Below, one piece after another: positions 6,985-45,607 of a DNA stretch of 64,000 nucleotides. The position numbers were made by a program, and so were the translations under genes. The notes beneath the pieces are model-generated. The model was not told where the DNA came from and made no database searches. It worked only from the letters and a program-made list of their open reading frames with translations. This stretch comes from Amphiura filiformis (taxonomy: Eukaryota; Echinodermata; Ophiuroidea; Amphilepidida; Amphiuridae). The stretch spans positions 60,119,776-60,183,775 of the forward strand of contig NC_092642.1 of NCBI RefSeq assembly GCF_039555335.1. The letters run 5' to 3'. Each line of letters starts with the position of its first letter. Position 1 is the stretch's first letter.

Positions 6985-8150
6985 AACATTTGGCCCCAAC
7001 TACAGATCATCTTCATGCACTAAATCAATTAATAGAAAAGGCAAATGAATACCAGTTAAAGCTTTGCGTTGGGTATATAGACTACGAAAAAGCCTTTGAC
7101 TCGGTAGAGCACAGAGACCTATTCACAGCTTTAAGAAAGATTGGAGTAAATGAAGGATATGTACAAATCATGGAGGACATATACACAGACGCAACAGCCA
7201 TTATTCATCTTGAAAATGATGTATCCAACTAATACACATCAAAAGAGGTGTAAGACAGGGTTATACAATTTCTCCAAAAATCTTCACAGCCGCCATGGAA
7301 GAAGTGTTCAAGAATTTAGACCTAAAACCGAGAGGAGTCAACATTGACGGAGATTATCTAACAGACCTGAGATTTGCAGACGATGTTGCATTAACAGCTG
7401 CATCAGTTGAGGATATAGAGGTGCAACTAAACAGCTTGAACAAGGAGAGTAAGAAGATAGGACTGAATATACACAAGGGGAAGACCAAATTCATGACAAA
7501 TTACCAGACAAACAAGTCCATTGAAGTAGAAAATGAGCAGATAGAACATGTAGAAAGTTATAAGTATCTAGGCCAGACAGTAAAGATGGAAGACAACACG
7601 AGAGAAGAAGTCATGCTAAGAATAAAGGCTGGCTGGAGTTGCTTTGGCAGACACAAAGAAATCCTATGTGACAAAAGACTACCAATGACACTGAGGACGA
7701 AAGTCTTCAACCAGTGCATATTACCTACAATGACCTATGGTTGTGAAACCTGGACAACAACTAAGTTTTTAGAACAAAAACTCAAGGTAGCACAGCATGC
7801 TATGGAGAGGAAAATGCTACATATCACCATACGTGACAAAGTAAAAAATGTGGAAATCAGGGACAAAACAAATGTCAAAGATATCATGGAAAGGATCAAG
7901 GAGGCAAAGTGGAGATAGGCGGGACACATAGCTCGTAGAGACGACAATAGATGGACAAAGAGGCTAACGGAATGGCAGCCAAGAACAGGAAAGAGAAGAA
8001 GGGGAAGACAAAAACGAAGATGGCGTGATGATCTCACATCCTATCTGGGTACAACCTGGGCAAGAGAAGCACCGAACAGAAGCAAATGGAAGCTACTTGA
8101 GGAGGGCTACATCCGACAGTGGGTGACACAGCCTGTGAGGTGAGGTGAGG
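6985..8150 (+). mobile_element. RTE-like LINE, 5'-truncated, frameshifted
   Basis: Reverse-transcriptase fragments in two or three frames. The first has TTDHLHALNQLIEKANEY then GYIDYEKAFDSVE. The next has an RGVRQGY-like turn, ISPKIFTAAMEEVF and the catalytic LRFADDVAL. After these come YLGQ, CILPTMTYGCETW, and past an internal TAG at 7918 the tail AGHIARRDDNRWTKRLTEW with a GRQKRRWRDDL block, ending WVTQPVR and TGA. This order is typical of RTE-clade LINEs. The 3' end is a short GGTGA microsatellite at 8136-8153. The endonuclease domain is absent and the frame is broken near 7230-7260, so it is dead. Confidence 0.85.
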
Positions 8151-8590
8151 AGGTCATTCAAATTTTCTGAGTGCATACCACTTTTCAGAGCCATATCTTT
8201 AAAGCCCCTCCCACTTTCGAAACTGGTAGATTACAAGTGAATTTCAGTTTTGACAAACACTTGTTGGTCTTTAGGTTCAGTAAATATCACCTCAGACCTC
8301 AATAAATTTGATTATATCAGAATTATGTTGTTCAGAAATTCAGAAATTTTGCTCCCATAAAAATTAAATTCAGACTCCTTAAATTCGCCATTTTAAGCTA
8401 ATTCACTACAGTATGAGCGCCATAATGTTAGGTAATGGAAAGCACATTTTCTGTCAAACAATTATTTTACACCATCTCCCGACACACCCCCATTAATATT
8501 TACCCCGTGCGGTTTATGCAGACCCTTCCAGACCAGTCTTGGAATTTTGAGAAAAATATTCCATTCTAAATGTCAAGTATGTAATAATAG
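8151..8590. repeat. Right arm of the long inverted repeat; start of tandem unit 1
   Basis: Reverse complement of 6462-6900. It is also the first 440 bases of each 3.5-kb tandem unit, recurring from 11660 and 15177. Confidence 0.8.
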
Positions 8591-9221
8591 AACACAATGT
8601 TAAGGTTCATAATTTAGGTCATAATAATTATTATCAAATGACATGCCAAGAAAAATAGATTATGAGATAAATTGGTTGGCAAATTACTCAAGATGGTATC
8701 ATGATGGAAATGAAAATGTTTTTTTAAATAACTGATGCCAAATACAAATATTCAGATGATTTGATGATAATTTTGGATTGATAATTGCATGCAAATTGGA
8801 TCACTTTTGGTAATGATTTAAAATATGCCAAAACACAAAATATCACAACAATAGGTTTAGTTTGGAAACCTGTTCAAATCAATTAATAAAACATTACTTA
8901 CTTACACTTAAACAAAGGATGAAAAAATGCAAAATGAAAATCATTAAACTTGTAAAATAACAGGAGAATATCAAAACTCTGTTTTGAAGAGAAATTGGAT
9001 GTGAGCAGTTATGATGCTCAACTTAACTCCTTTGGCCTACATAATACATGGATAATTTGTAAGAAATTGCATTGAAAGCAATAAAACAATTAAACCATGA
9101 CAAAAAAATAATACCAATTTTAAGAATACAAATTTTGGAGTTTAATACACTGAATATGATAATAAATATAACCAGCCAGCGGGTCGTGGTGGCGACTACA
9201 TACTCTTCATGCTCACCCCTA

Positions 9222-9486
9222 TCCCAACCTGTTCACTAAGGTCCTTCAGTAAACATTATTAAATTAAGTCCTAAAAGTTTTCTCCCTCACTCACTCTCTC
9301 TCTCTCTCTCTTATGTATTTGTTAACACTATTATCTAGCTATCTATTGTATTCTCTATATCAGTTATTCTAAATAAACAAACTTTTTCACCAGGTTCCAC
9401 CATTGTAAATAATTAGTTATTCTTTCTTTATCTTCCAAACATTTATGCTCTTATTATTAAGACCAGCCATTCTGGTGCCGGTTACA
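9222..9486. repeat. CT-rich retroelement-like repeat, copy 2
   Basis: Same family and direction as 4862-5179 but with a short CT tract. It is directly followed by the GPCR-3'-flank piece CTAACATTCCCCTAAAAATAAGG. Confidence 0.65.
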
Positions 9487-9703
9487 CTAACATTCCCCTA
9501 AAAATAAGGTGGCTTCTATTTTCATGTGGCAGTCTTGTCTATAATCACTGGAAACTGATGGATACTAATCATTTGTGTTAAGATATGCAGCAGTAAAAAG
9601 AGAATAACTAGGATATTAATAATGATCTAAAAGACGACATTAACTAACATGAACTTTAATTAAATATTTTACGAGAACAAAACCAAATTTTACTCACTAG
9701 TTT

Positions 9704-9740
9704 GACGGTTTCGCTTTTCATGGTCGAAAAGCATCATCAG
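9704..9740 (-). ncRNA. Hammerhead-ribozyme-like motif, unit 1 left
   Basis: On the minus strand: CTGATGA, then T, a perfect 7-bp stem GCTTTTC/GAAAAGC with loop GACCAT, then GAAAC and CGTC. This matches the hammerhead catalytic core. There is one extra U between CUGAUGA and stem II, and a minimal stem III as described for Penelope-like elements. Cleavage activity is inferred, not shown. Confidence 0.6.
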
Positions 9741-9794
9741 AATATTGATTGATGATCACTTCATTCGGTTGGAAGTGGGCCCCGTCGTCCCTAT

Positions 9795-10157
9795 TCATGA
9801 CGTTGGGTCCTCTCCTATTCCTTGATGCGTCTTATATGGGGTTGTTGCACGCTTTGCTAAGAATTTTGAATTGTCCCAATTTGTAACATGGTGTTCTTGA
9901 ACTGCATGGTTTGCGATAGCTGATTTTGATTGTTCAGTTTCTGACTGTTTGCGTGTTTGACGCGTGTAGTTTTGTTTTGTCTTTTCCACCCTCATAGTTT
10001 CTTTTTGAAGCTCTTTGAATCGCGTTGCAATTGCAAACTTCCTTCCGGTCTCACCAACATAAGTCAGTGGTTGCAATTGGTCAAGTGTGGTTGCCAACGT
10101 CATGAAAAAGGGACGACGGAGCCCACTTTCTAAATATGATCCTCTACTGAGTGACAA
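9795..10157 (-). pseudogene. GIY-YIG domain fragment of a Penelope-like polyprotein
   Basis: A 120-residue frame. Residues about 33-39 are YVGETGR, the central part of the GIY-YIG fold in Penelope-like elements. The later H-x4-H-V-x-N-W-D-N stretch matches the C-terminal half of that domain. Full Penelope proteins also carry an upstream reverse transcriptase, which is missing, so this is a dead remnant. The ATG is internal and not a true start. Confidence 0.75.
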
Positions 10158-10217
10158 TTCTACACCCTCTGTGGTCGGGATTCGTCCAACCGGAAGAAGT
10201 GATCATCAATCAATATT

Positions 10218-10254
10218 CTGATGATGCTTTTCGACCATGAAAAGCGAAACCGTC
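10218..10254 (+). ncRNA. Hammerhead-ribozyme-like motif, unit 1 right
   Basis: Same core on the plus strand in the opposite terminal repeat, so the two motifs face away from each other's strand. Confidence 0.6.
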
Positions 10255-10556
10255 AAACTAGTGAGTATATTTTGGTTTTGTTCTCATTAAAATATTTAAT
10301 TATTTATCTTCAAACCTGATGAATCTATTCAGTAACAAGAACTTTACTTACAGTTAGTTCAATTTATCGGTTAAATCTACAATTTGATGAATGTGCTAAT
10401 CTATCCTTCTAATACAGGTTTGACTATCATGTGACAAATCGAATCTGTGACGTCAATATTGATATCGATATCAATTAGGCTGTTCCAGTTAAATTACATA
10501 CCCATTGGCCATTGGCTGTTCCATTTAATTTACATACTCCCTGGCCCCAAAATAGC

Positions 10557-10700
10557 TGTTTCATTCATTCATTCATTCATTTATTATTTCACTCATCAAA
10601 TAGCAAAAAGCTAGAATACATACAAAATCATAATACAGTGAGAGTGAAGGAATCACAGAAAAGGCCAAGAAGAGGCCTGAAAATCTGTGATCCTTGATTG
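10557..10700 (-). mobile_element. LINE 3' tail (L2/CR1/Jockey style), unit 1
   Basis: A CATT repeat followed by TTATTATTTCACTCATC is the complement of a 3' tail reading GATGAGTGAAATAATAA plus (ATGA)n. Adjacent palindromic GGCCAAGAAGAGGCC and ATCACAG/CTGTGAT words look like a structured 3' UTR. No coding part remains. Confidence 0.55.
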
Positions 10701-11285
10701 ATTAATTCAATATTTCACATGGCAGCAGATTGTCACTTCAATAAAGTAACAGTAAGCTGCCATATCTTGATATGAATTAACCTAAATACATGAAAAATAA
10801 CAGTTAACAATATTAAATAAGAAATAGTATTTTCAGATAAAGTATAAGACAAAGTATAAACATTTCAGTTGAAAACCCGTAAGGTTAAATAAGAAATTAA
10901 ATTAAAAGAAATTAACATGATGCAGTCATGTCTACAGTTGAATTCACCACGACCTTTGCAGGACTTAAACCCCATTAAAAGCTATTAAACCAAGATAACA
11001 CTCATTGAAAACAGCTCAACTATGTTACATCAGATCTTCTCTGGTTAAATCCACACTACACATGTTTCTGTTTTACCTGTGCAATGAGCAATGAGCTGGT
11101 ATTATAGTTTCAGTTGGGTGAACGATTATAAAGCAATCGCAAGGTAAAAATACTGTGTGGGCCTTTGTTCACGAAATGAGACAATAGTGTGCATATTGTT
11201 AATCAGAATTCTTGAAAATGAGAAACATAATGGCTGTGGACCGTAAAATAATTTCTTCATATTTTTTGGTGTTATCTGTCGTTTA

Positions 11286-11640
11286 CATCCTTCCTAAAAC
11301 ACAAAAGTGCGAATATTTCCAAACACCTAAATTGGCTAAAATTTAGGACATGTTACAAAACTATATTTTCTAGAATTTCAGAAGAATACTTTAAATATTG
11401 GCCGGTTATTTTTCACACAGCGACGTTAACTAGGCAATGTCCTATTACCTATAACATACACTAAAACACCAAAGTGCGAATATTTTCAAACATCTAGATT
11501 AGCTAAAAATTTAGGACATGTTACAAAACTATATTTTCTAGAATTTCAGAAGAATACTTTACATATTGGCCGGTTATTTTGCACACAGCGACGTTAACTA
11601 GGCAATTGCCTATACTTCTAACATACACTATTTGTAGAGG
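11286..11640. repeat. Two tandem ~172-bp subrepeats at the end of unit 1
   Basis: Each subrepeat has AAGTGCGAATATTT, GGACATGTTACAAAACTATA, TTTCTAGAATTTCAGAAG and GCCGGTTATTTT in order, ending GACGTTAACTAGGCAA. The arrangement is repeated in units 2 (14806-15155) and 3 (18325-18675). Confidence 0.85.
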
Positions 11641-12737
11641 TTACGCGTCAGAGGTGAGGAGGTCATTCAAATTTTCTGAGTGCATACCACTTTTCAGAGC
11701 CATATCTTTAAAGCCCCTCCCACTTTCGAAACTGGTAGATTACAAGTGAATTTCAGTTTTGACAAACACTTGTTGGTCTTTAGGTTCAGTAAATATCACC
11801 TCAGACCTCAATAAATTTGATTATATCAGAATTATGTTGTTCAGAAATTCAGAAATTTTGCTCCCATAAAAATTAAATTCAGACTCCTTAAATTCGCCAT
11901 TTTAAGCTAATTCACTACAGTATGAGCGCCATAATGTTAGGTAATGGAAAGCACATTTTCTGTCAAACAATTATTTTACACCATCTCCCGACACACCCCC
12001 ATTAATATTTACCCCGTGCGGTTTATGCAGACCCCTTCCAGACCAGTCTTGGAATTTTGAGAAAAATATTCCATTCTAAATGTCAAGTATGTAATAATAG
12101 AACACAATGTTAAGGTTCATAATTTAGGTCATAATAATTATTATCAAATGACATGCCAAGAAAAATAGATTATGAGATAAATTGGTTGGCAAATTACTCA
12201 AGATGGTATCATGATGGAAATGAAAAATGTTTTTTTTAAATAACTGATGCCAAATACAAATATTCAGATGATTTGATGATAATTTTGGATTGATAATTGC
12301 ATGCAAATTGGATCACTTTTGGTAATGATTTAAAATATGCCAAAACACAAAATATCACAACAATAGGTTTAGTTTGGAAACCTGTTCAAATCAATTAATA
12401 AAACATTACTTACTTACACTTAAACAAAGGATGAAAAAAATGCAAAATGAAAATCATTAAACTTGTAAAATAACAGGAGAATATCAAAACCTCTGTTTTG
12501 AAGAGAAATTGGATGTGAGCAGTTATGATGCTCAACTTAACTCCTTTGGCCTACATAATACATGGATAATTTGTAAGAAATTGCATTGAAAGCAATAAAC
12601 AATTAAACCATGACAAAAAAATAATACCAATTTTAAGAATACAAATTTTGGAGTTTAATACACTGAATATGATAATAAATATAACCAGCCAGCGGGTCGT
12701 GGTGGCGACTACATACTCTTCATGCTCACCCCCTATC

Positions 12738-13000
12738 CCAACCTGTTCACTAAGGTCCTTCAGTAAACATTATTAAATTAAGTCCTAAAAGTTTTCTCCC
12801 TCACTCACTCTCTCTCTCTCTCTCTTATGTATTTGTTAACACTATTATCTAGCTATCTATTGTATTCTCTATATCAGTTATTCTAAATAAACAAACTTTT
12901 TCACCAGGTTCCACCATTGTAAATAATTAGTTATTCTTTCTTTATCTTCCAAACATTTATGCTCTTATTATTAAGACCAGCCATTCTGGTGCCGGTTACA
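12738..13000. repeat. CT-rich retroelement-like repeat, copy 3
   Basis: Identical in layout to 9222-9486. Confidence 0.65.
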
Positions 13001-13218
13001 CTAACATTCCCCTAAAAATAAGGTGGCTTCTATTTTCATGTGGCAGTCTTGTCTATAATCACTGGAAACTGATGGATACTAATCATTTGTGTTAAGATAT
13101 GCAGCAGTAAAAAGAGAATAACTAGGATATTAATAATGATCTAAAAGACGACATTAACTAACATGAACTTTAATTAAATATTTTTACGAGAACAAAACCA
13201 AATTTTACTCACTAGTTT

Positions 13219-13255
13219 GACGGTTTCGCTTTTCATGGTCGAAAAGCATCATCAG
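13219..13255 (-). ncRNA. Hammerhead-like motif, unit 2 left
   Basis: Same CTGATGA / GCTTTTC-GAAAAGC / GAAAC core as in unit 1. Confidence 0.6.
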
Positions 13256-13309
13256 AATATTGATTGATGATCACTTCATTCGGTTGGAAGTGGGCCCCGT
13301 CGTCCCTAT

Positions 13310-13672
13310 TCATGACGTTGGGTCCTCTCCTATTCCTTGATGCGTCTTATATGGGGTTGTTGCACGCTTTGCTAAGAATTTTGAATTGTCCCAATTTGTA
13401 ACATGGTGTTCTTGAACTGCATGGTTTGCGATAGCTGATTTTGATTGTTCAGTTTCTGACTGTTTGCGTGTTTGACGCGTGTAGTTTTGTTTTGTCTTTT
13501 CCACCCTCATAGTTTCTTTTTGAAGCTCTTTGAATCGCGTTGCAATTGCAAACTTCCTTCCGGTCTCACCAACATAAGTCAGTGGTTGCAATTGGTCAAG
13601 TGTGGTTGCCAACGTCATGAAAAAGGGACGACGGAGCCCACTTTCTAAATATGATCCTCTACTGAGTGACAA
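13310..13672 (-). pseudogene. GIY-YIG domain fragment, unit 2
   Basis: 120 residues, same YVGETGR signature and same length as unit 1. No reverse transcriptase. Confidence 0.72.
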
Positions 13673-13732
13673 TTCTACACCCTCTGTGGTCGGGATTCGT
13701 CCAACCGGAAGAAGTGATCATCAATCAATATT

Positions 13733-13769
13733 CTGATGATGCTTTTCGACCATGAAAAGCGAAACCGTC
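13733..13769 (+). ncRNA. Hammerhead-like motif, unit 2 right
   Basis: Opposite-strand partner in the right terminal repeat. Confidence 0.6.
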
Positions 13770-14071
13770 AAACTAGTGAGTATATTTTGGTTTTGTTCTC
13801 ATTAAAATATTTAATTATTTATCTTCAAACCTGATGAATCTATTCAGTAACAAGAACTTTACTTACAGTTAGTTCAATTTATCGGTTAAATCTACAATTT
13901 GATGAATGTGCTAATCTATCCTTCTAATACAGGTTTGACTATCATGTGACAAATCGAATCTGTGACGTCAATATTGATATCGATATCAATTAGGCTGTTC
14001 CAGTTAAATTACATACCCATTGGCCATTGGCTGTTCCATTTAATTTACATACTCCCTGGCCCCAAAATAGC

Positions 14072-14215
14072 TGTTTCATTCATTCATTCATTCATTTATT
14101 ATTTCACTCATCAAATAGCAAAAAGCTAGAATACATACAAAATCATAATACAAGTGAGAGTGAAGGAATCACAGAAAAGGCCAAGAAGAGGCCTGAAAAT
14201 CTGTGATCCCTTGAT
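14072..14215 (-). mobile_element. LINE 3' tail, unit 2
   Basis: Copy of 10557-10700. Confidence 0.5.
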
Positions 14216-16250
14216 TGATTAATTCAACATTTCACATGGCAGCAGATTGTCACTTCAATAAAGTAACAGTAAGCTGCCATATCTTGATATGAATTAACCT
14301 AAATACATGAAAAATAACAGTTAACAATATTAAATAAGAAATAGTATTTTCAGATAAAGTATAAGACAAAGTATAAACATTTCAGTTGAAAACCCGTAAG
14401 GTTAAATAAGAAATTAAATTAAAAGAAATTAACATGATGCAGTCATGTCTACAGTTGAATTCACCACGACCTTTGCAGGACTTAAACCCCATTAAAAGCT
14501 ATTAAACCAAGATAACACTCATTGAAAACAGCTCAACTATGTTACATCAGATCTTCTCTGGTTAAATCCACACTACACATGTTTCTGTTTTACCTGTGCA
14601 ATGAGCAATGAGCTGGTATTATAGTTTCAGTTGGGTGAACGATTATAAAGCAATCGCAAGGTAAAAATACTGTGTGGGCCTTTGTTCACGAAATGAGACA
14701 ATAGTGTGCATATTGTTAATCAGAATTCTTGAAAATGAGAAACATAATGGCTGTGGACCGTAAAATAATTTCTTCATATTTTTTGGTGTTATCTGTCGTT
14801 TACATCCTTCCTAAAACACAAAAGTGCGAATATTTCCAAACACCTAAATTGGCTAAAAATTTAGGACATGTTACAAAACTATATTTTCTAGAATTTCAGA
14901 AGAATACTTTAAATATTGGCCGGTTATTTTTCACACAGTGACGTTAACTAGGCAATGTCCTATTACCTATAACATACACTAAAACACCAAAGTGCGAATA
15001 TTTTCAAACATCTAGATTAGCTAAAATTTAGGACATGTTACAAAACTATATTTTCTAGAATTTCAGAAGAATACTTTACATATTGGCCGGTTATTTTGCA
15101 CACAGCGACGTTAACTAGGCAATTGCCTATACTTCTAACATACACTATTTGTAGAGGTTACGCGTCAGAGGTGAGGAGGTCATTCAAATTTTCTGAGTGC
15201 ATACCACTTTTCAGAGCCATATCTTTAAAGCCCCTCCCACTTTCGAAACTGGTAGATTACAAGTGAATTTCAGTTTTGACAAACACTTGTTGGTCTTTAG
15301 GTTCAGTAAATATCACCTCAGACCTCAATAAATTTGATTATATCAGAATTATGTTGTTCAGAAATTCAGAAATTTTGCTCCCATAAAAATTAAATTCAGA
15401 CTCCTTAAATTCGCCATTTTAAGCTAATTCACTACAGTATGAGCGCCATAATGTTAGGTAATGGAAAGCACATTTTCTGTCAAACAATTATTTTACACCA
15501 TCTCCCGACACACCCCCATTAATATTTACCCCGTGCGGTTTATGCAGACCCCTTCCAGACCAGTCTTGGAATTTTGAGAAAATATTCCATTCTAAATGTC
15601 AAGTATGTAATAATAGAACACAATGTTAAGGTTCATAATTTAGGTCATAATAATTATTATCAAATGACATGCCAAGAAAAATAGATTATGAGATAAATTG
15701 GTTGGCAAATTACTCAAGATGGTATCATGATGGAAATGAAAAATGTTTTTTTTAAATAACTGATGCCAAATACAAATATTCAGATGATTTGATGATAATT
15801 TTGGATTGATAATTGCATGCAAATTGGATCACTTTTGGTAATGATTTAAAATATGCCAAAACACAAAATATCACAACAATAGGTTTAGTTTGGAAACCTG
15901 TTCAAATCAATTAATAAAACATTACTTACTTACACTTAAACAAAGGATGAAAAAAATGCAAAATGAAAATCATTAAACTTGTAAAATAACAGGAGAATAT
16001 CAAAAACTCTGTTTTGAAGAGAAATTGGATGTGAGCAGTTATGATGCTCAACTTAACTCCTTTGGCCTACATAATACATGGATAATTTGTAAGAAATTGC
16101 ATTGAAAGCAATAAACAATTAAACCATGACAAAAAAATAATACCAATTTTAAGAATACAAATTTTGGAGTTTAATACACTGAATATGATAATAAATATAA
16201 CCAGCCAGCGGGTCGTGGTGGCGACTACATACTCTTCATGCTCACCCCTA

Positions 16251-16515
16251 TCCCAACCTGTTCACTAAGGTCCTTCAGTAAACATTATTAAATTAAGTCC
16301 TAAAAGTTTTCTCCCTCACTCACTCTCTCTCTCTCTCTCTCTTATGTATTTGTTAACACTATTATCTAGCTATCTATTGTATTCTCTATATCAGTTATTC
16401 TAAATAAACAAACTTTTTCACCAGGTTCCACCATTGTAAATAATTAGTTATTCTTTCTTTATCTTCCAAACATTTATGCTCTTATTATTAAGACCAGCCA
16501 TTCTGGTGCCGGTTA
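16251..16515. repeat. CT-rich retroelement-like repeat, copy 4
   Basis: Same as copies 2 and 3, with a slightly longer CT run. Confidence 0.65.
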
Positions 16516-16735
16516 CACTAACATTCCCCTAAAAATAAGGTGGCTTCTATTTTCATGTGGCAGTCTTGTCTATAATCACTGGAAACTGATGGATACTAAT
16601 CATTTGTGTTAAGATATGCAGCAGTAAAAAGAGAATAACTAGGATATTAATAATGATCTAAAAGACGACATTAACTAACATGAACTTTAATTAAATATTT
16701 TTACGAGAACAAAACCAAATTTTACTCACTAGTTT

Positions 16736-16772
16736 GACGGTTTCGCTTTTCATGGTCGAAAAGCATCATCAG
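16736..16772 (-). ncRNA. Hammerhead-like motif, unit 3 left
   Basis: Same core as in units 1 and 2. Confidence 0.6.
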
Positions 16773-16863
16773 AATATTGATTGATGATCACTTCATTCGG
16801 TTGGAAGTGGGCCCCGTCGTCCCTATTCATGACGTTGGGTCCTCTCCTATTCCTTGATGCGTC

Positions 16864-17190
16864 TTATATGGGGTTGTTGCACGCTTTGCTAAGAATTTTT
16901 GAATTGTCCCAATTTGTAACATGGTGTTCTTGAACTGCATGGTTTGCGATAGCTGATTTTGATTGTTCAGTTTCTGACTGTTTGCGTGTTTGACGCGTGT
17001 AGTTTTGTTTTGTCTTTTCCACCCTCATAGTTTCTTTTTGAAGCTCTTTGAATCGCGTTGCAATTGCAAACTTCCTTCCGGTCTCACCAACATAAGTCAG
17101 TGGTTGCAATTGGTCAAGTGTGGTTGCCAACGTCATGAAAAAGGGACGACGGAGCCCACTTTCTAAATATGATCCTCTACTGAGTGACAA
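16864..17190 (-). pseudogene. GIY-YIG domain fragment, unit 3, frameshifted end
   Basis: Identical to units 1 and 2 up to WDNSK, then diverges because of a one-base insertion. This is the only coding difference among the three copies. Confidence 0.7.
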
Positions 17191-17250
17191 TTCTACACCC
17201 TCTGTGGTCGGGATTCGTCCAACCGGAAGAAGTGATCATCAATCAATATT

Positions 17251-17287
17251 CTGATGATGCTTTTCGACCATGAAAAGCGAAACCGTC
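17251..17287 (+). ncRNA. Hammerhead-like motif, unit 3 right
   Basis: Same core as in units 1 and 2, on the plus strand. Confidence 0.6.
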
Positions 17288-17589
17288 AAACTAGTGAGTA
17301 TATTTTGGTTTTGTTCTCATTAAAATATTTAATTATTTATCTTCAAACCTGATGAATCTATTCAGTAACAAGAACTTTACTTACAGTTAGTTCAATTTAT
17401 CGGTTAAATCTACAATTTGATGAATGTGCTAATCTATCCTTCTAATACAGGTTTGACTATCATGTGACAAATCGAATCTGTGACGTCAATATTGATATCG
17501 ATATCAATTAGGCTGTTCCAGTTAAATTACATACCCATTGGCCATTGGCTGTTCCATTTAATTTACATACTCCCTGGCCCCAAAATAGC

Positions 17590-17730
17590 TGTTTCATTCA
17601 TTCATTCATTCATTTATTATTTCACTCATCAAATAGCAAAAAGCTAGAATACATACAAAATCATAATACAAGTGAGAGTGAAGGAATCACAGAAAAGGCC
17701 AAGAAGAGGCCTGAAAATCTGTGATCCCTT
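17590..17730 (-). mobile_element. LINE 3' tail, unit 3
   Basis: Copy of 10557-10700. Confidence 0.5.
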
Positions 17731-18812
17731 GATTGATTAATTCAACATTTCACATGGCAGCAGATTGTCACTTCAATAAAGTAACAGTAAGCTGCCATAT
17801 CTTGATATGAATTAACCTAAATACATGAAAAATAACAGTTAACAATATTAAATAAGAAATAGTATTTTCAGATAAAGTATAAGACAAAGTATAAACATTT
17901 CAGTTGAAAACCCGTAAGGTTAAATAAGAAATTAAATTAAAAGAAATTAACATGATGCAGTCATGTCTACAGTTGAATTCACCACGACCTTTGCAGGACT
18001 TAAACCCCATTAAAAGCTATTAAACCAAGATAACACTCATTGAAAACAGCTCAACTATGTTACATCAGATCTTCTCTGGTTAAATCCACACTACACATGT
18101 TTCTGTTTTACCTGTGCAATGAGCAATGAGCTGGTATTATAGTTTCAGTTGGGTGAACGATTATAAAGCAATCGCAAGGTAAAAATACTGTGTGGGCCTT
18201 TGTTCACGAAATGAGACAATAGTGTGCATATTGTTAATCAGAATTCTTGAAAATGAGAAACATAATGGCTGTGGACCGTAAAATAATTTCTTCATATTTT
18301 TTGGTGTTATCTGTCGTTTACATCCTTCCTAAAACACAAAAGTGCGAATATTTCCAAACACCTAAATTGGCTAAAAATTTAGGACATGTTACAAAACTAT
18401 ATTTTCTAGAATTTCAGAAGAATACTTTAAATATTGGCCGGTTATTTTTCACACAGCGACGTTAACTAGGCAATGTCCTATTACCTATAACATACACTAA
18501 AACACCAAAGTGCGAATATTTTCTAACATCTAGATTAGCTAATAATTTAGGACATGTTACAAAACTATATTTTCTAGAATTTCAGAAGAATACTTTACAT
18601 ATTGGCCGGTTATTTTGCACACAGCGACGTTAACTAGGCAATTGCCTATACTTCTAACATACACTATTTGTAGAGGTTACGCGTCAATGGTGAGAGCACT
18701 GTGTATTGTGTATAGGAAAACGGACAGTAACTGCAGTATGATGCAAACCAGCCCAATACAAATTCTGCAATACATGCATTTCCATAAAAAGGCTGCTTCT
18801 TATCTCACGCAC

Positions 18813-18818: not shown

Positions 18819-18903
18819 GAATAATAATAATAATAACCGTGTCCTATTGAACTGACACCAATTTTTTTCAGGAACATCTTGTTTGTATAATTACATATGA
18901 TGA

Positions 18904-19935
18904 TTACCGGCGTTCTGTGAGTCTTTTGAAACAAGAGATATAAAATTTACGTAGCTTACTTTCTGTAATTCCATACATTAGCGCATCAAATAATGACGTA
19001 CAATACAACAGAAGCACCAGATAATAGACGATTATTGGTTTCAGGCAAGTTGGACAAATTAAACCAATAACTACCACGTATGAAAAGTAAGGCAATGTAG
19101 AAACACACATAGCGGTTACTAAAGCACCTAAAGTCATGGCAGGTTTTAAGTATCGATTCCTGCTCCGTTGCAATCGTTTTTCTGATGTCATTGGACCTGT
19201 TGTACTAGCCACAGTGCTCTCATCTTCAGGTCCGACTCTCTTGATCTTCTGAAGTCTCAGGTGTAATGCATGCAGAAATGCTAGACTAAAGACAGCAACA
19301 AGAAACACAGGAGTAAATAAAAATGTAAACAAAAATATAAGGGATACTTCCGGAATCCACCTTGTCGGCGACAGGCAGACCAAGTCAAAGTTGATGTGCG
19401 CAGCAATTACGCTAGTAGATTTAGCATATTCCCAGAATCCTATATCTATCACAGCAGCTGCTAAAGATAGAATCCAACATATAGATATTGCCAACAAAAT
19501 CCGTGGTTTTGACTGAAACTTAATGTATTTTGGATACTGAAGTTTGACGAGGAGGAGGCGATCCAGGCTGATGGTACAGAGAATCAGGAGGCCGTTGGTC
19601 ACAGATGCGTAAGCCATGGCGTCGTAAAACTTGCAGCCAAGTTCTCCAAAGATCCAGCGTCCTCCAAATATACCAAAAGACAGATGATATGGAATCATTA
19701 TCAATCCTTTGAACAGGTCAACAAAAGCAAGACTCAATATCAGAAGATTCGATGATTTCTCTCGTAAACCTTTGACCTTCCAGAATGCTATGATTGTACC
19801 AAGATTGGCTAGGACAGTTATGAGAGAAAGGCATATCGTCCATATGACGACACTGAGCTTAATTACTAAATTGCTAGTGTTCAGGACTGAGTGATCAGAC
19901 TGGTCCGAGATAGAGATGCTCGATCCATTCGACAT
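18904..19935 (-). CDS. Class A (rhodopsin-like) GPCR, intact, single exon, 343 aa
   Basis: Seven hydrophobic segments are evident. TM1 (about residues 25-48) contains LANLG, TM2 contains LAFVD, and TM3 starts at C-K-F-Y and ends SLDRLLLV. TM4 has ICWILSL, TM5 (about 190-215) has LFTPVFLV, TM6 has VSTLPYFSY, and TM7 ends SLFDALMYG, followed by helix 8 ESKLRKFY. Cysteines before TM3 and in ECL2 (VCLSP) can form the standard disulfide. The amino terminus has NGS and NTS glycosylation sequons. DRY is replaced by DRL, there is no CWxP, and NPxxY is DAxxY, so G-protein coupling may be atypical. Ligand unknown; loosely aminergic-like in style. I chose the ATG at 19935 because the sister copy starts at the matching MSNSS and has stops upstream. 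An in-frame ATG at 20037 would add 34 residues. Confidence 0.88.
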   Translation of the reverse strand: MSNGSSISISDQSDHSVLNTSNLVIKLSVVIWTICLSLITVLANLGTIIAFWKVKGLREKSSNLLILSLAFVDLFKGLIMIPYHLSFGIFGGRWIFGELGCKFYDAMAYASVTNGLLILCTISLDRLLLVKLQYPKYIKFQSKPRILLAISICWILSLAAAVIDIGFWEYAKSTSVIAAHINFDLVCLSPTRWIPEVSLIFLFTFLFTPVFLVAVFSLAFLHALHLRLQKIKRVGPEDESTVASTTGPMTSEKRLQRSRNRYLKPAMTLGALVTAMCVSTLPYFSYVVVIGLICPTCLKPIIVYYLVLLLYCTSLFDALMYGITESKLRKFYISCFKRLTERR

Positions 19936-20999
19936 GGTGAAAGTTTGTTTACTGTAGTAGATTGATGCTCTCCCGGGTTCCTCTCCTTCTGTTAGCTTGT
20001 TCAAATTAATATTGCTGCCACTATGTTCCAAGTTCAACTAATATCACAATATTTTTATCGTTCTTTAACCTCTAGCGTCAATTGTCAAAACTACTCAGTT
20101 ACATGAAGGAGTAAAATCGTTACACTCGCTTCAATCTTGTGAAAAAGCCACCTGTCAAGTAGCATTAGAATCGCTTTATTGAATTTCTATCCCATCTTCA
20201 TTGGGTTATAATATTTGTACAGAATATGTTGTTAAAAAATTCAATTTGGATATCCTTTATTACTTTTTGTGTCATTGTTTAGGATTGCAAATAACCTACC
20301 AACGCCTCCGTGTTTATCTCTTACTAGCAAATCAATGTTGACATAGGTCGCCATGGAAACGCATTTGTGAATTACTATTTCTCATTATTTTCAGGTTTGT
20401 CATATTTATATAGAAATCGTAAGTAATAAATTTGATTTAACAATCCTTTATTACATCATTTGACATTTATATGAGGTATTCCAAACAACAGACCGACGAC
20501 TTCGTGTTTATTCATCATGTTCATGGTCACCGTGGACTTGTGAAGCCTGTGTCTCGTTGTAATTTTACATACAATAAGCATCATTGAATTTGATTAGACT
20601 TCCTTTTGTTAAACAACATGTCGAAAAAAATATATCAAATATAAAATAAAAAACGAAAGCTTATGGTACATTTTATAAAATAAAAAACGAAAGCTTATGG
20701 TACATTTTATGAAATTGGTAGTTTTTGATATTGCGTAAGGACATAATTCCTATCTATTGCATACCGTTAGAGTACTGGGAGTCACTGTGTTTTCAAAAAA
20801 AAAATCGTACCTTCATAAGATAACTGTAAAATGTTAATTCATTACCTTTTTGTACACAATATATTTTCCAAGTGCAAAACTGCTGATTTTGCATTATTAG
20901 ATTTTACATTGCTCAGCCTATAAACCCATGCCTTCTGAAATAAATTTCACAAACTATGATGATTATATTAAAATCCTTCACTTAAAACGATCGCCTTAA
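19936..20999. other. 5' flank of the intact GPCR
   Basis: Homologous in patches to 2705-3500, for example the GGAAACGCATTTGTGAAT word at 3440 and 20355. A related word cluster recurs near 20510, so part of the flank is itself duplicated. No gene seen. Confidence 0.5.
20641..20709. repeat. Two tandem copies of a ~35-bp unit
   Basis: AAAACGAAAGCTTATGGTAC with flanking ATAAAATAAA and ATTTTAT is present twice in direct succession. Confidence 0.8.
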
Positions 21000-21185: not shown

Positions 21186-21502
21186 CATCTTTCGAATGGT
21201 AGTGAGCTTTGGCAAAAATTGCATTGCTCAATTCATACCGAGCGTGTAGAAGAATTCAAATATCACAGATATACTTTTGTAGGTCCTGTGGTTCTTGAGT
21301 TATGTTGTAAAAGGGATGAAACAACATCACTTTAACAATAATAATAATATGAACATGAACATCAAAGTATTATTTTACAATAATATATTAATTTAGATAA
21401 TGAAATTTATATTGGGTGCTCCTTTGTCTATCCCAACTCCCACAACCGAGTTGTTCTGTTTTTAATTTTCTATTCCGCATCCGCCCATCCGACCGCTGGT
21501 TT

Positions 21503-37733
<16,231 letters not shown>

Positions 37734-40053: not shown

Positions 40054-41056
40054 CTAGCGGGACACCCGCGCTACGCGCGGGTCCCCGCTAGGTGAGTAAA
40101 TGGGAGCGTTCACTAAAACGGGAGGAATTACTGAACAGGTAGAATCATTGAAAAGGTAAATTTCATTTATCTGAGTCTGACCCTCGTTAAGCCTAAGTTT
40201 CCATTTTAGCTTCTTTCTTTCTTTTTAGTTTCTTCTACATGGGCCAATTTTGTTCCATTTTTTAAAAACATTTTGCTGCTAAGCTTGCAAATTTCCGTTA
40301 CCATGTTTTTTATTTACTCAATCCCGTTCCCATTATTTTCTAAATCTGTCCTTTCTTACATTTCCCTGTTGACTTCATTTTTTATTTGCTGCTTAGCTTG
40401 TGATTTCCCGTTTTTATGTTATTTATTTAGTTCTGTCCTCAGTTTAATAGCTTTTTTTATTTAAATCATCTAATTTTATTAGATTTTATTATTCTTTCCT
40501 TCTTTAGCCTATTTTATTCCCGTTTTCATTTTCTTACTGTGACTAACTATAGGCTAACCCACATACTCGTAGGCCTACCTGTTTGTCCTCATTTTGTTTT
40601 CTTTTTTAATTACAGTAGGCCTACCTCTTCATGTTGTTTGTACTTTTTAACACACATCTTTTCCCCGTATTTATTACGCCTACGGTCGGTCGTTCACCCG
40701 TATTATCATTCATTGCGCGACTCTGCGTCGTTTACGCGCGACATGGCGTAGTGCTGCGTTACCCGCGCGCTATCGCTGCGCTACGCGAGCGACTTGGCAT
40801 TAGATACGCCCGTAAAACGCGCACGGGCTAGCTTTACAACTGACTCCCTTTTTTGTTTACCCAGCATAGCAACGTACCACATTTTCACTGATTTTGAGGC
40901 CAATTCTTGACCGTTTTCAACCAAATAAAGTTTAAACACGTTCCCGTATATTCATCGATCTCCCGTATGAATTTGGCGACATTTGGATCGAAACTGACAG
41001 AGCCTTTATAGCATACATAGATAGATACATACAACATTTCCCTATTTATAGTAAGA
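40054..41056 (-). mobile_element. Non-autonomous Helitron 1
   Basis: Read on the minus strand it begins TCTTACTATAAATAGGGAAA and ends with the hairpin ACCCGCGC-GTA-GCGCGGGT, six bases, then CTAG. The base after CTAG is T (host). Its 5' TC is joined directly to the CTAG of the next element. It is about 1.0 kb, T/A-rich, with a (GATA)n patch near the 5' end and no Rep/helicase frame. Confidence 0.87.
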
Positions 41057-41482
41057 CTAGCGGGACACCCGCGCTACGCGCGGGTCCCCGCTAGATGAGT
41101 AAATGGGAGCGTTCACTAAAACAGGAGGAATTACTGAACAGGTAGAATCATTGCAAAGGTAAATTATATTTATCTGAACCTGACCCTCTTTAAGCCTACG
41201 TTTCCATTTTAACTTCTTTCTTTCTTTTTAGTTTTTTCTACATGGGCCAATTTTGTTCCATTTAAAAAAAATTCTGCTGCTAAGCTTCCGATTTTCCGTT
41301 ACCATGTTTTTTATTTATTCAACCCCGTTCCCGTTATTTTCTAAATCTGTCCTTTCTTACATTTCCATTTTAGCTTCTATTTTATTTGCTGCATAGCTTG
41401 TGATTTCCCGTTTTCATGTTATTTATTTAATTCTGTCCTCAGTTTAATAGCTTTTTTATTTAAACTTCCTGATTTTTATTTA

Positions 41483-42505
41483 CTAGCGGGACACCCGCGC
41501 TACGCGCGGGTCCCCGCTAGATGAGTAAATGGGAGCGTTCACTAAAACAGGAGGAATTACTGAACAGGTAGAATCATTGAAAAGGTAAATTTTATTTATC
41601 TGAACCTGACCATCTTTAAGCCTACGTTTCCATTCGAACTTCTTTCTTTCTTTTTAGTTTTTTCTACATGGGCCAATTTTGTTCCATTAAAAAAAAATTC
41701 TGCTGCTAAGCTTCCGATTTTCCGTTACCATGTTTTTTTATTTATTCAACCCCGTTCCCGTTATTTTCTAAATCTGTCCTTTCTTACATTTCCATTTTAG
41801 CTTCTATTTTATTTGCTGCATAGCTTGTGATTTCCCGTTTTCATGTTATTTATTTAATTCTGTCCTCAGTTTAATAGCTTTTTTATTTAAACTTCCTGAT
41901 TTTATTATAGCTTTTTTTCCCTTACACATTTCCTGAAGAGTTTCATTCTTTCCTTCTTTAGCCTATTTTATTCCCGGTTTCATTTTGTGACTTAGTATAA
42001 CCCACATACTCGTACAGCCTGTTTGTCCTCATTTTGTTTTCTTTTTTATTTATAGTAGGCCTACCTCTTCATGTTGTTTGTACTTTTTAACACACATTCT
42101 GTTTCCCGTATTTATTACGCTACGGTCGTTCACCCGTAATATCATTCATTACGTGACTCTGCGTCGTTTACGCGTGCCATGGCGTAGTGCTGCGTTACCC
42201 GCGCGGTATCGCTGCGCTACGCGAGCGGCTTGGCATTAGATCCGCCCGTGCGACGCGCAGGAATATAGCTTAGTAACGGACTCCTTTTTTGTTTACCTTG
42301 GATAGCAACGGACCACATTTTCACTGATTTTGAGGCCAATTCTTGACCGTTTTCAACCAAATAAAGTTTAAACACGTTCCCGTATATTCATCGATCTCCC
42401 GTATGAATTTGGTGACATTTGGATAGAAACTGACGGAGCCTTTATAGGCATACATAGATACATAGATAGATAGATAGATACAACATTTCCCTATTTATAG
42501 TAAGA
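41483..42505 (-). mobile_element. Non-autonomous Helitron 3 (nested)
   Basis: Same hairpin and CTAG end; the host base after CTAG is T. Its 5' TC is joined to the CTAG of Helitron 4. Confidence 0.87.
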
Positions 42506-43494
42506 CTAGCGGGATACCCGCGCTTCGCGCGGGTCCCCGCTAGATGAGTAAACGGGAGCGAAATGAAATAAAGGATAAAAAGGTACATGAGTAAACGGGA
42601 GCGTTCACTATAACAGGAAGAATTACAGAACAGGTAGAATCATTGAAAAGGTACATTTTATTTATCTAAATCTGTCTCTTCTTACATTTTCTTTATTAGT
42701 TTCTTCTGCTTAGCTTGTGATTTCCCGTTTCCATGTTATTTATTTATTTAACCCCGTTCCCATTATTTTCTAAATCTGTTCTTTCTTATAACATTTCCCT
42801 TTTAGCTTTTTTTTAATTTCCCGTTTTCATGTTTTTTATTTAATTCTGTTCTTATTATTTTAGCTTATTTTTTTCTTACAATTCCTGATTAGTTCCCTTC
42901 CTTCTTTGTTTCGTTCCCATTTCATTTAGTTACTTTAACCCGTTGGCCTATTACTCGTACCTTTTTTGTCCTCATTTTAATCTCATTTTTCTTTATAGTA
43001 CCGCTTCATGTTGTTTAAAAACATACATCTTTTTCTCGTATTTTTATTACGTCCTCTCATAGCGTGTCTGCGGACGTGTTTACCCGTTATCATAATCCCT
43101 GGACCCGTCCATGTACCTTTTCATCCTTTATTTTTCCTTCTTTTATCATGTCCGTCCACTGGTGGATCTGCGTCGCCGTTTACGCGCGCATTGGCGTAGT
43201 GCGCATTACGCACGCAGCGTCGACGCGCTGCCTTCCAGCTGCAGTGACGCGTAGGCTGATAACCGATTTTTATAACAAAAATACCGTTTTTACCCATATT
43301 TTCACTGTTTTTGCAGCCAGTTCTTGACCGTTTTCAACCAAATTTTCGCATAACCGTTTCGGTATATTCCTCGATCTCCCGTATGAATTTGGCGACATTT
43401 AGATCGAAACTGACGGAGCCTTTATACACGATACATACATAGATAGATAGATAGATAGATAGATACATACAACATTCCCCTATTTATAGTAAGA
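42506..43494 (-). mobile_element. Non-autonomous Helitron 4 (nested, diverged)
   Basis: The hairpin reads ACCCGCGC-GAA-GCGCGGGT followed by ATCCCG and CTAG. The 5' end TCTTAC is preceded by host A. The interior is more diverged than in the others and has a longer GATA run. Confidence 0.85.
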
Positions 43495-44449
43495 TTATAG
43501 CTTTTTTCCCCTTACATTTCCTGAAGAGTTTCTTTCTTTCCTTCTTTAGCCTATTTTATTCCCGGTTTCATTTTGTGACTAAGTATAACCCACATACTCG
43601 TACAGCCTGTTTGTCCTCATTTTGTTTTCTTTTTTATTTACAGTAGGCCTACCTCTTCATGTTGTTTGTACTTTTAACACACATTCTGTTTCCCGTATTT
43701 ATTACGCTACGGTCGTTCACCCGTAATATCATTCATTACGTGACTCTGCGTCGTTTACGCGTGCCATGGCGTAGTGCTGCGTTACCCGCGCGGTACCGCT
43801 GCGCTACGCGAGCGGCTTGGCATTAGATACGCCCGTGCGACGCGCAGGCCTAGCTTAGTAACTGACTGCTTTTTTTGTTTACCTTGGATAGCAACGGACC
43901 ACATTTTCACTGATTTTGAGGCCAATTCTTGACCGTTTTCAACCAAATAAAGTTTAAACACGTTCCCGTATATTCATCGATCTCCCGTATGAATTTGGCG
44001 ACATTTGGATCGAAACTGACGGAGCCTTTATAGCATACATAGATAGATACATACAACATTTCCCTATTTATAGTAAGACTAGATTTCGCGGTTCTCGGGT
44101 TGGGTGGTTCTCGTGATAGGACTTTCTCTAATTACGCAACACCCGTTACCCATTATGATAGGCCTACCTGCCCTGACCTTTTAAACTAACTATGATATAC
44201 GTCTCTCAATGATGAAGACTCAATTTGACACAATAATCAACTTAGTAGTTTTGTAGCTGTGACGTTTACTTGGCCGTAATCTGAAACCCATCGTTCGCCT
44301 CTTCCAAGCCCTGTCCTGCTACCACATATGAGCCCCCTAAAAGAATACCCTGAAATAGCCATGTTCTGAGTAATAGGCCTCTGCACGTGTGTGTTGAAAA
44401 TAGGCCTATTGATCCGATCAGATGCACCTGCACGATTAGCCACACTGTA

Positions 44450-45458
44450 GGGGAGAGCGGGGAGTGTTCGCCCTAGGGGTAGGTTCGCCCACCCCTTGTT
44501 TCTCAGCACTACGGCTATCGGGGAATTTGGTGATGGCAAAATTAGGTGACAAAGGTCACTATAAACTTCTCATATTAGCTACGTGACATATACAGACGTG
44601 TTCATCGAACTGCAGCCAAAACAAAAGATTTACACAAAAACGTAACTTTTTCTTGCATTAATAATGTTGTATTATCATTGATACATAAATATAGATGGTT
44701 TTAATGGAAATCTGTATTGGGAACATATGGGATTTGTCAAAGATTAAATGCAGTTATAAACTCTTTATTCGATTTGTATTTTGCATACCCTTAAGAAAAT
44801 ACAAAAATGTGCACAAGGGCATGTTCGCCCTTTTGAGGATGGGGCTTGTTCGCCCTATATCTTCCCCTGGCGGACTTACCCCCAATCTGGAGGGCGGACC
44901 TGCCCCATCCGCGTATTATGCAAAATATTGATAATTATACCATTAAACAAGGTAAAACAACTGAAAAGCATGTTTTTTAAAGTTATGTGGTATCAGTATT
45001 GCTCATACCACCGTTTATTTCCTAATCCATAATCTCCCCGAAGTTGTAAACATGATACGTTTAAACTCACTTTGGACCCCTACATTTGACCCTGACCCGA
45101 CCCCTGCAACAAATTTAGTGACTCCCCAGAAGAGAATGAATGCCCTGTATACCCTTGCTAAATGTTTGCATTGAATATGTTATTGTTATGCAATGTTTAA
45201 ACCTTTTTTTGGGATTAGGGTGAACTTACCCCACCATATGGGCGAACCTGCCCCAATATGGGGCAAGTTCGCCACTTTGCAAAACTTTTTTGTTTGCTCT
45301 ATCCTGTTGATATTGTGAGCCCTATAGTTCTGGGATTGTGGCCGTATATAGCTAAGACATAGGGCTTTCACATGGGCTAATCAGGTCATCCCTAACCTTA
45401 AAATTGACATCGCTAGGCTGGTCAGAAAAAAATAGGGCGAACACTCCCCGCTCTCCCC
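44450..45458. mobile_element. TA-flanked 1-kb element, GGGGAGAGCGGGGAG ends
   Basis: 26-bp perfect inverted ends (GGGGAGAGCGGGGAGTGTTC and complement), TA on both sides. Subterminal GTTCGCCC or GGGCGAAC words recur at 44467, 44484, 44825, 44848, 45240, 45265 and 45436. No transposase frame. Confidence 0.9.
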
Positions 45459-45607
45459 TAATGCTTTCTGATGCTCGCACTGCGCCCGTTGGTACTCTGC
45501 GAACTACGTGATAGCGCACCGCGCGGACGCTCGCGATGCGCACCGCGAGCACGCGATAGCGCGCGGACAGAGGACGGACGGACGGACACGCCATAATTAG
45601 TATTAAG

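Follow-up and report, generated by a model that had tools for sequence, protein, structure and literature searches.

Our analysis has shown that the array of short repeats at 40054-44078 (minus strand) of an Amphiura filiformis sequence consists of four related elements of about 1 kb, not three, and that one head-to-tail pair of them (B|C) sits inside a unit (A) that itself belongs to an outer pair (A|D). The window, meaning the whole stretch of DNA that was analysed, comprised 64,000 nt of the forward strand of NC_092642.1 (60,119,776-60,183,775), and all positions are given within it. Judging from their sequences, the cluster represents non-autonomous elements of the Helitron1 type that have diverged from one another and were probably assembled by consecutive insertions. 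Exact CTAG|TC junctions have been taken as footprints of rolling-circle read-through, and a preliminary description of this DNA had explained the array in the same way, as a head-to-tail array. The nested pair, however, serves as an internal clock, with the interrupted unit being at least as old as the pair within it. This clock speaks against read-through at one of the two junctions; thus, the precision of a junction alone is no evidence for concatemeric replication. The clock is also a simple test that can be applied to every tandem Helitron pair in a genome.

Read along the minus strand, the array is composed of the 5′ part of unit A, unit B, unit C, the 3′ part of unit A and unit D. All four units start with TCTTAC and end with CTAG; TCTTACTATAAATAGG opens each of them, and a 38-nt palindrome that includes the CTAG closes each of them. 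The 5′ ends lie at 44078, 43494, 42505 and 41056, and the 3′ ends at 42506, 41483, 41057 and 40054 (all minus strand, as are the following coordinates). The 5′ part of unit A (43495-44078, 584 bp) runs from TCTTAC to an insertion point at ...GCTATAA and is colinear with the 5′ part of unit C (97.6% identity over 583 columns). It is followed by the TCTTAC of unit B (42506-43494, 989 bp), which represents a diverged subfamily, is the first of the nested pair and ends in the 3′ hairpin and CTAG. An exact CTAG|TC junction links it to unit C (41483-42505, 1023 bp), the second of the nested pair, whose 3′ CTAG is followed by the rest of unit A. This 3′ part of unit A (41057-41482, 426 bp) extends from TAAATAAAAATC to the hairpin CTAG and is colinear with the 3′ part of unit C (98.6% over 421 columns). 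Unit D (40054-41056, 1003 bp) stands head to tail with unit A, again with an exact CTAG|TC junction (41057/41056). When joined, the two parts of unit A give 1010 bp that are colinear with unit C (98.0% over 1004 columns), and the breaks fall exactly where B begins and where C ends. Unit A is therefore one interrupted unit. The alignment among all four units is end to end and covers their whole length. Within unit B, a CGCTCCCGTTTACTCAT segment is duplicated beside the hairpin of the 3′ end, and the stretches 43110-43133 and 42566-42589 form an inverted repeat of 24 bp (96%).

The preliminary description had reported CTAG|TCTTAC joints with zero bases between them at two sites, and both are present (41057/41056 and 42506/42505), as is the CTAG that it placed ahead of the first TC (44079/44078). 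Its unit size of about 1 kb holds for the four units found here (989-1023 bp) but not for the intervals set by its own junctions, which measure 1003, 1449 and 1573 bp. It had overlooked two ends, a 5′ one at 43494 and a 3′ one at 41483, and hence also the interruption of unit A by B and C; with one pair nested inside another unit, the array is not a simple tandem.

The last 38 nt of each unit form a 16-bp stem, in whose outer part the terminal CTAG lies opposite an internal CTAG. In each of the four units the 3′ end folds to about -20 kcal/mol (z -5.8 to -6.4), and none of 200 shuffles was as stable; these four tests are not independent because A, C and D have identical 38-nt ends (41057-41094, 41483-41520 and 40054-40091, respectively). 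The palindrome of B (42506-42543), which also runs from CTAG to CTAG, differs from them by two substitutions, one in the loop and one in an unpaired bulge. A scan of the 64-kb window for segments of 30-45 nt that close in CTAG and have perfect outer arms of 8 bp returned these four places and no other, the pattern having been picked after the units had been seen. The hairpin, six bases and CTAG given by the preliminary description can be recognized in that a hairpin with CTAG does close the array at 40054, but it is really one longer stem that includes the terminal CTAG. This differs from canonical Helitrons, whose palindrome is placed about 11 nt from the 3′ end in the available parts of two sources (PMC4067079, PMC4778049); we do not claim the layout as new. 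Over the last 47 nt or so, even B shares 94-96% identity with the other units, and the first 17 nt are identical across all four units, the diverged B included. Within the palindrome of B, 2 of 38 positions are changed, compared to about 23-24% of aligned positions over the whole of B. Since B keeps the same ends, a Rep/helicase of the same kind presumably moved it as well.

Helitron1 elements are defined by a palindrome of 16-20 nt located about 11 nt before the 3′ end and by insertion between A and T without target duplication. The units described here are most likely non-autonomous members of this group, with hairpin position and target matching the definition only in part. They resemble Helitron1 in their 5′ TC, their 3′ CTAG (CTRR), the single 3′ hairpin, the inner A^T target, the lack of any coding capacity found and the lack of asymmetric terminal inverted repeats (ATIRs) and of a 5′ hairpin, whereas the outer 5′ flank is G and not A. 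ATIRs were sought by comparing the first 16 nt with the reverse complement of the last 200 nt; the best ungapped agreement was 9-10 of 16 positions, which 264-458 of 500 shuffles equalled. A 5′ terminal hairpin was likewise absent from the first 40 nt, which fold to 0 kcal/mol in all four units. Membership in Helitron2/Helentron was rejected on these two grounds. An internal microsatellite and a 3′ terminal hairpin are shared with Helentron/Helitron2/DINE-1 elements as the available text describes them (PMC4067079, PMC3627910), but the inner target is A^T here rather than T^T.

The window contains 108 stop-to-stop, unspliced ORFs of at least 75 aa and at least 14 residue types, and 105 of these were scanned against Pfam (E 0.01). 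Those left out were 13313-13717 and 16867-17235, which are copies of 9798-10202, and 21391-21675 (all minus strand). The scan for a Rep/helicase partner yielded eight Pfam families among the 105 ORFs, none of them Helitron or helicase, although a spliced or decayed gene could escape such a scan. Four short HUH-like strings were also noted. The earlier assignment of the array to non-autonomous Helitrons with exact CTAG|TC junctions is borne out by the ends of the units, the 3′ hairpin, the inner A^T target, the lack of ATIRs and of a 5′ hairpin, and by the finding of no Helitron protein in the scanned ORFs.

One explanation is that each head-to-tail pair is a single rolling-circle product, copied beyond the 3′ terminator and integrated as a tandem; this would account for the exact CTAG|TC junctions, which lack a host A. 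Helraiser circles carry the same precise head-to-tail junction, according to the available portions of two reports (PMC4778049, PMC5876387). The divergence among the units nevertheless makes this explanation very unlikely. In ungapped columns, A and C are separated by a K2P distance of only 0.020, while A and D are 92.4% identical (K2P 0.080) and C and D 91.8% identical (K2P 0.087). For unit B, identity amounts to 77.0% with C (840 columns), 76.8% with A (828 columns) and 75.9% with D (844 columns), with K2P distances of 0.28-0.29 (0.276 for B-C) and 19-23 gaps between it and each other unit. Thus, the two members of the nested pair lie 0.28 apart, while the older, interrupted unit A is 0.02 from C. 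Relative rates were also uneven, with private changes numbering 182 in B and 7 in C when A was the outgroup (chi2 162), and 160 in B and 23 in C when D was the outgroup (chi2 103). The units of one read-through run start out identical, and A predates B and C. Had B and C been the same on entering A, both C and A would be expected to have diverged about as far as B, yet B and C have accumulated such unequal numbers of changes. B|C therefore did not come from one read-through event, unless the rate of change in B was about 7 to 26 times that in C. The rolling-circle origin proposed in the preliminary description is left unsupported by these distances and rates.

At the outer junction the evidence is more even. 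With B as outgroup, the relative rates of A and D are equal (22:25), as expected of units of the same age, and read-through and consecutive insertion both allow this result. Among 19 sites at which two units share one state against the other two, A agrees with C at 17, with D at 2 (where B also agrees with C) and with B at none; 9 sites of at least three states were left out of the count. An AU test on the four sequences, whose alignment contains long gaps, rejected the (A,B) tree at p = 0.012 and the (B,C) tree at a modest p = 0.041. Because A and C have 17 states in common against B and D, read-through at A|D would mean that C was copied from A at a late stage and then entered A again. Based on these comparisons, we consider read-through a less likely, though still possible, origin of the A|D junction (92% identity).

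In the consecutive-insertion scheme that we favour, D would have been present first, and A would have inserted at the 5′ end of D to give the outer pair. A C-type element would then have entered unit A between an A and a T, at GCTATAA^TAAAT, leaving a new A^T at its own 5′ end, made up of the A of the target and the first T of C. Insertion of the diverged B at this new A^T would have produced CTAG|TC with nothing between. With every canonical insertion, an A^T is re-created at the 5′ edge of the new element, and an array can thus extend 5′-ward without any terminator being passed. The inner pair fits this route with no need for a non-canonical step. The order of C and then B is the one we infer, and it is also possible that B came first and C inserted at CTAG^T. 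At the inner site, unit A has 5 extra nt relative to C, and TAA is present on both sides; the empty site is therefore not perfectly clean, and there may be a 3-bp target duplication.

A comparable explanation has been put forward in maize, where, as far as the available text of Du et al. 2008 (PMC2267711) goes, a CTAG|TC pair of dissimilar Helitrons was ascribed to consecutive insertions. An AT formed by the host A and the T of the element is one route proposed there, and insertion at G^T is the alternative. Some of the maize lines surveyed in that study carry the left (5′) element alone. Its authors note that this agrees with the G^T route and would otherwise call for a clean excision (PMC2267711), and the finding speaks against our scheme.

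B and C may instead have been paired elsewhere and then moved into unit A as a piece of about 2 kb, reaching from the TC of B past B's terminator to the CTAG of C. A single A^T insertion would then be enough at this locus. There are precedents in the available parts of the literature, in that Helraiser bypasses its 3′ end and transduces flanking DNA (PMC4778049), and composite or nested Helitrons with multiple termini have been proposed for maize (PMC3288121) and Fusarium (PMC5148889). However, an intact hairpin would have to be bypassed, and the pair itself would still require consecutive insertion. A second copy of B|C was also not found by nhmmer within the 64-kb window with the array masked (best E 0.71), although one window says little on this point. 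Taken together, we regard such transfer as an unlikely origin of the nested pair.

Unequal recombination or gene conversion between the near-identical 3′ hairpin ends of neighbouring units could also create precise junctions, and both the similarity of these ends, even in B, and the unusual likeness of A and C would accord with it. We reason, however, that a crossover in the hairpins of an A5|B|A3|D precursor (A5 and A3 being the two parts of A) predicts a D-like copy after B, whereas 17 sites place C with A and none places it with D alone. At least two precise exchanges would also be required. This origin appears highly improbable, and consecutive insertion remains our preferred reading.

The outer pair does not show the A^T route, because its 5′ flank is CTAG (44079-44082, minus strand). 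This CTAG lies immediately 5′ of the whole array, with CGCGAAATCTAG ahead of the 5′ end at 44078, so that the outer target is G^T and not A^T. Base composition gives a probability of 0.0033 for CTAG at any four given bases, and the motif is rarer than this in the window, with 132 occurrences observed versus 214 expected. A remnant of a lost unit beside this CTAG was not detected, as the nhmmer search of the whole window with the array masked gave nothing below E 0.71 and BLAST of 700 bp of each array flank against the units gave nothing below E 0.45. For Helraiser, the available text reports 46 of 1,751 insertions at sites other than AT, with TT, AC and AA as the most prominent alternatives (PMC4778049); G^T is thus not one of the exceptions named. 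Compared over the 11 nt that follow the cut, the host site of the outer pair (CTAG^TTTTATTAAAA) and the joined end (CTAG^TCTTACTATAA) agree at 8 positions. In the window, 249 of 40,754 T-starting 11-mers (0.6%) reach this level, and the comparison is weak and post hoc. The outer CTAG may go back to a lost unit, to a G^T insertion or to preferential use of CTAG^T. It is quite unlikely that the transposase prefers its own end junction as a target, with arrays growing by self-targeting at CTAG^T and not by read-through; if it did so, a 3′ hairpin with the nick site in its stem would perhaps help.

Adjacent or tandem Helitrons have been reported in other organisms, and the following comparisons are limited to the parts of those sources that were available. 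The adjacent Helitrons at maize r1 (PMC2267711) similarly have CTAG joined to TC to make G/T, and their paired units differ. The units described here, in contrast, belong to one family with measurable divergence, and the nested pair sets bounds on their relative ages. In Metarhizium acridum, three Helitrons occur in tandem (PMC5148889); these belong to a fungal, non-canonical group, and the available text makes no mention of a nested pair. The Helibat arrays of Myotis lucifugus (Pritham and Feschotte 2007, as cited in PMC2267711 and PMC4067079) have perfect head-to-tail junctions that lack the host A, as observed here. They have been read as tandem repeats, whereas the joined units of our array, at least B and C, were non-identical at insertion. 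A multi-step nested intermediate has been proposed for maize (PMC3288121). In the literature searched, available in part and mostly without subscription papers, we found no description of a Helitron pair nested in a member of another pair.

Further copies of the family were sought by pattern. The exact 17-nt 5′ end matched 4 contigs of viral_contigs, and an 18-nt junction pattern matched 5 contigs of genome_contigs. When the units were compared with these loci by BLAST (E up to 1), none of the alignments listed exceeded 24 nt. Those at the pattern sites spanned only 14-18 nt and came from 8 of the 9 loci, the remaining one (L006) being absent from the list. A profile of the units run with nhmmer against the 9 loci also gave nothing at E 1. 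With only short matches by BLAST and none by nhmmer, all 9 were rejected as chance. Three further scans of viral_contigs returned 0, 1 and 0 contigs, and the single match (L010) was rejected since the second arm of the palindrome is missing.

Other repeats are present in the window. An element of about 1 kb at 44448-45460 is bounded by identical 28-bp inverted repeats (44448-44475 and 45433-45460), each consisting of TA followed by GGGGAGAGCGGGGAG, and it has the appearance of a non-autonomous cut-and-paste transposon that targets TA. A repeat of about 119 bp occurs in about four tandem copies at 23024-23500 (98-99% identical). At 8142-18694, a segment of about 3.5 kb is present in three tandem copies that are 99.5-99.6% identical, reflecting either a recent duplication or an effect of assembly. 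The copies carry matching ORFs on the minus strand at 9795-10202 (135 aa), 13310-13717 (135 aa) and 16864-17235 (123 aa). This triplication is flanked by two related receptor-like ORFs, one on each side (1662-2474 and 18904-20037), and the DNA at 1655-2870 is 88% identical to that at 18897-20101. The longer of the two (18904-20037) gave matches to 7tm_1 (E 1e-28) and, in PDB, to aminergic receptors; 7tm_1 matches were obtained for 2 of the 105 scanned ORFs, the second of which is not named in the tally. The Pfam tally also includes one Arrestin_N and one Arrestin_C match among the 105 ORFs, again without the ORFs being named. The matches to rhodopsin-family receptors and arrestin domains point to an animal host. 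From its sequence, we take the ORF at 27248-27586 (minus strand) to be an exon of an arrestin-domain protein.
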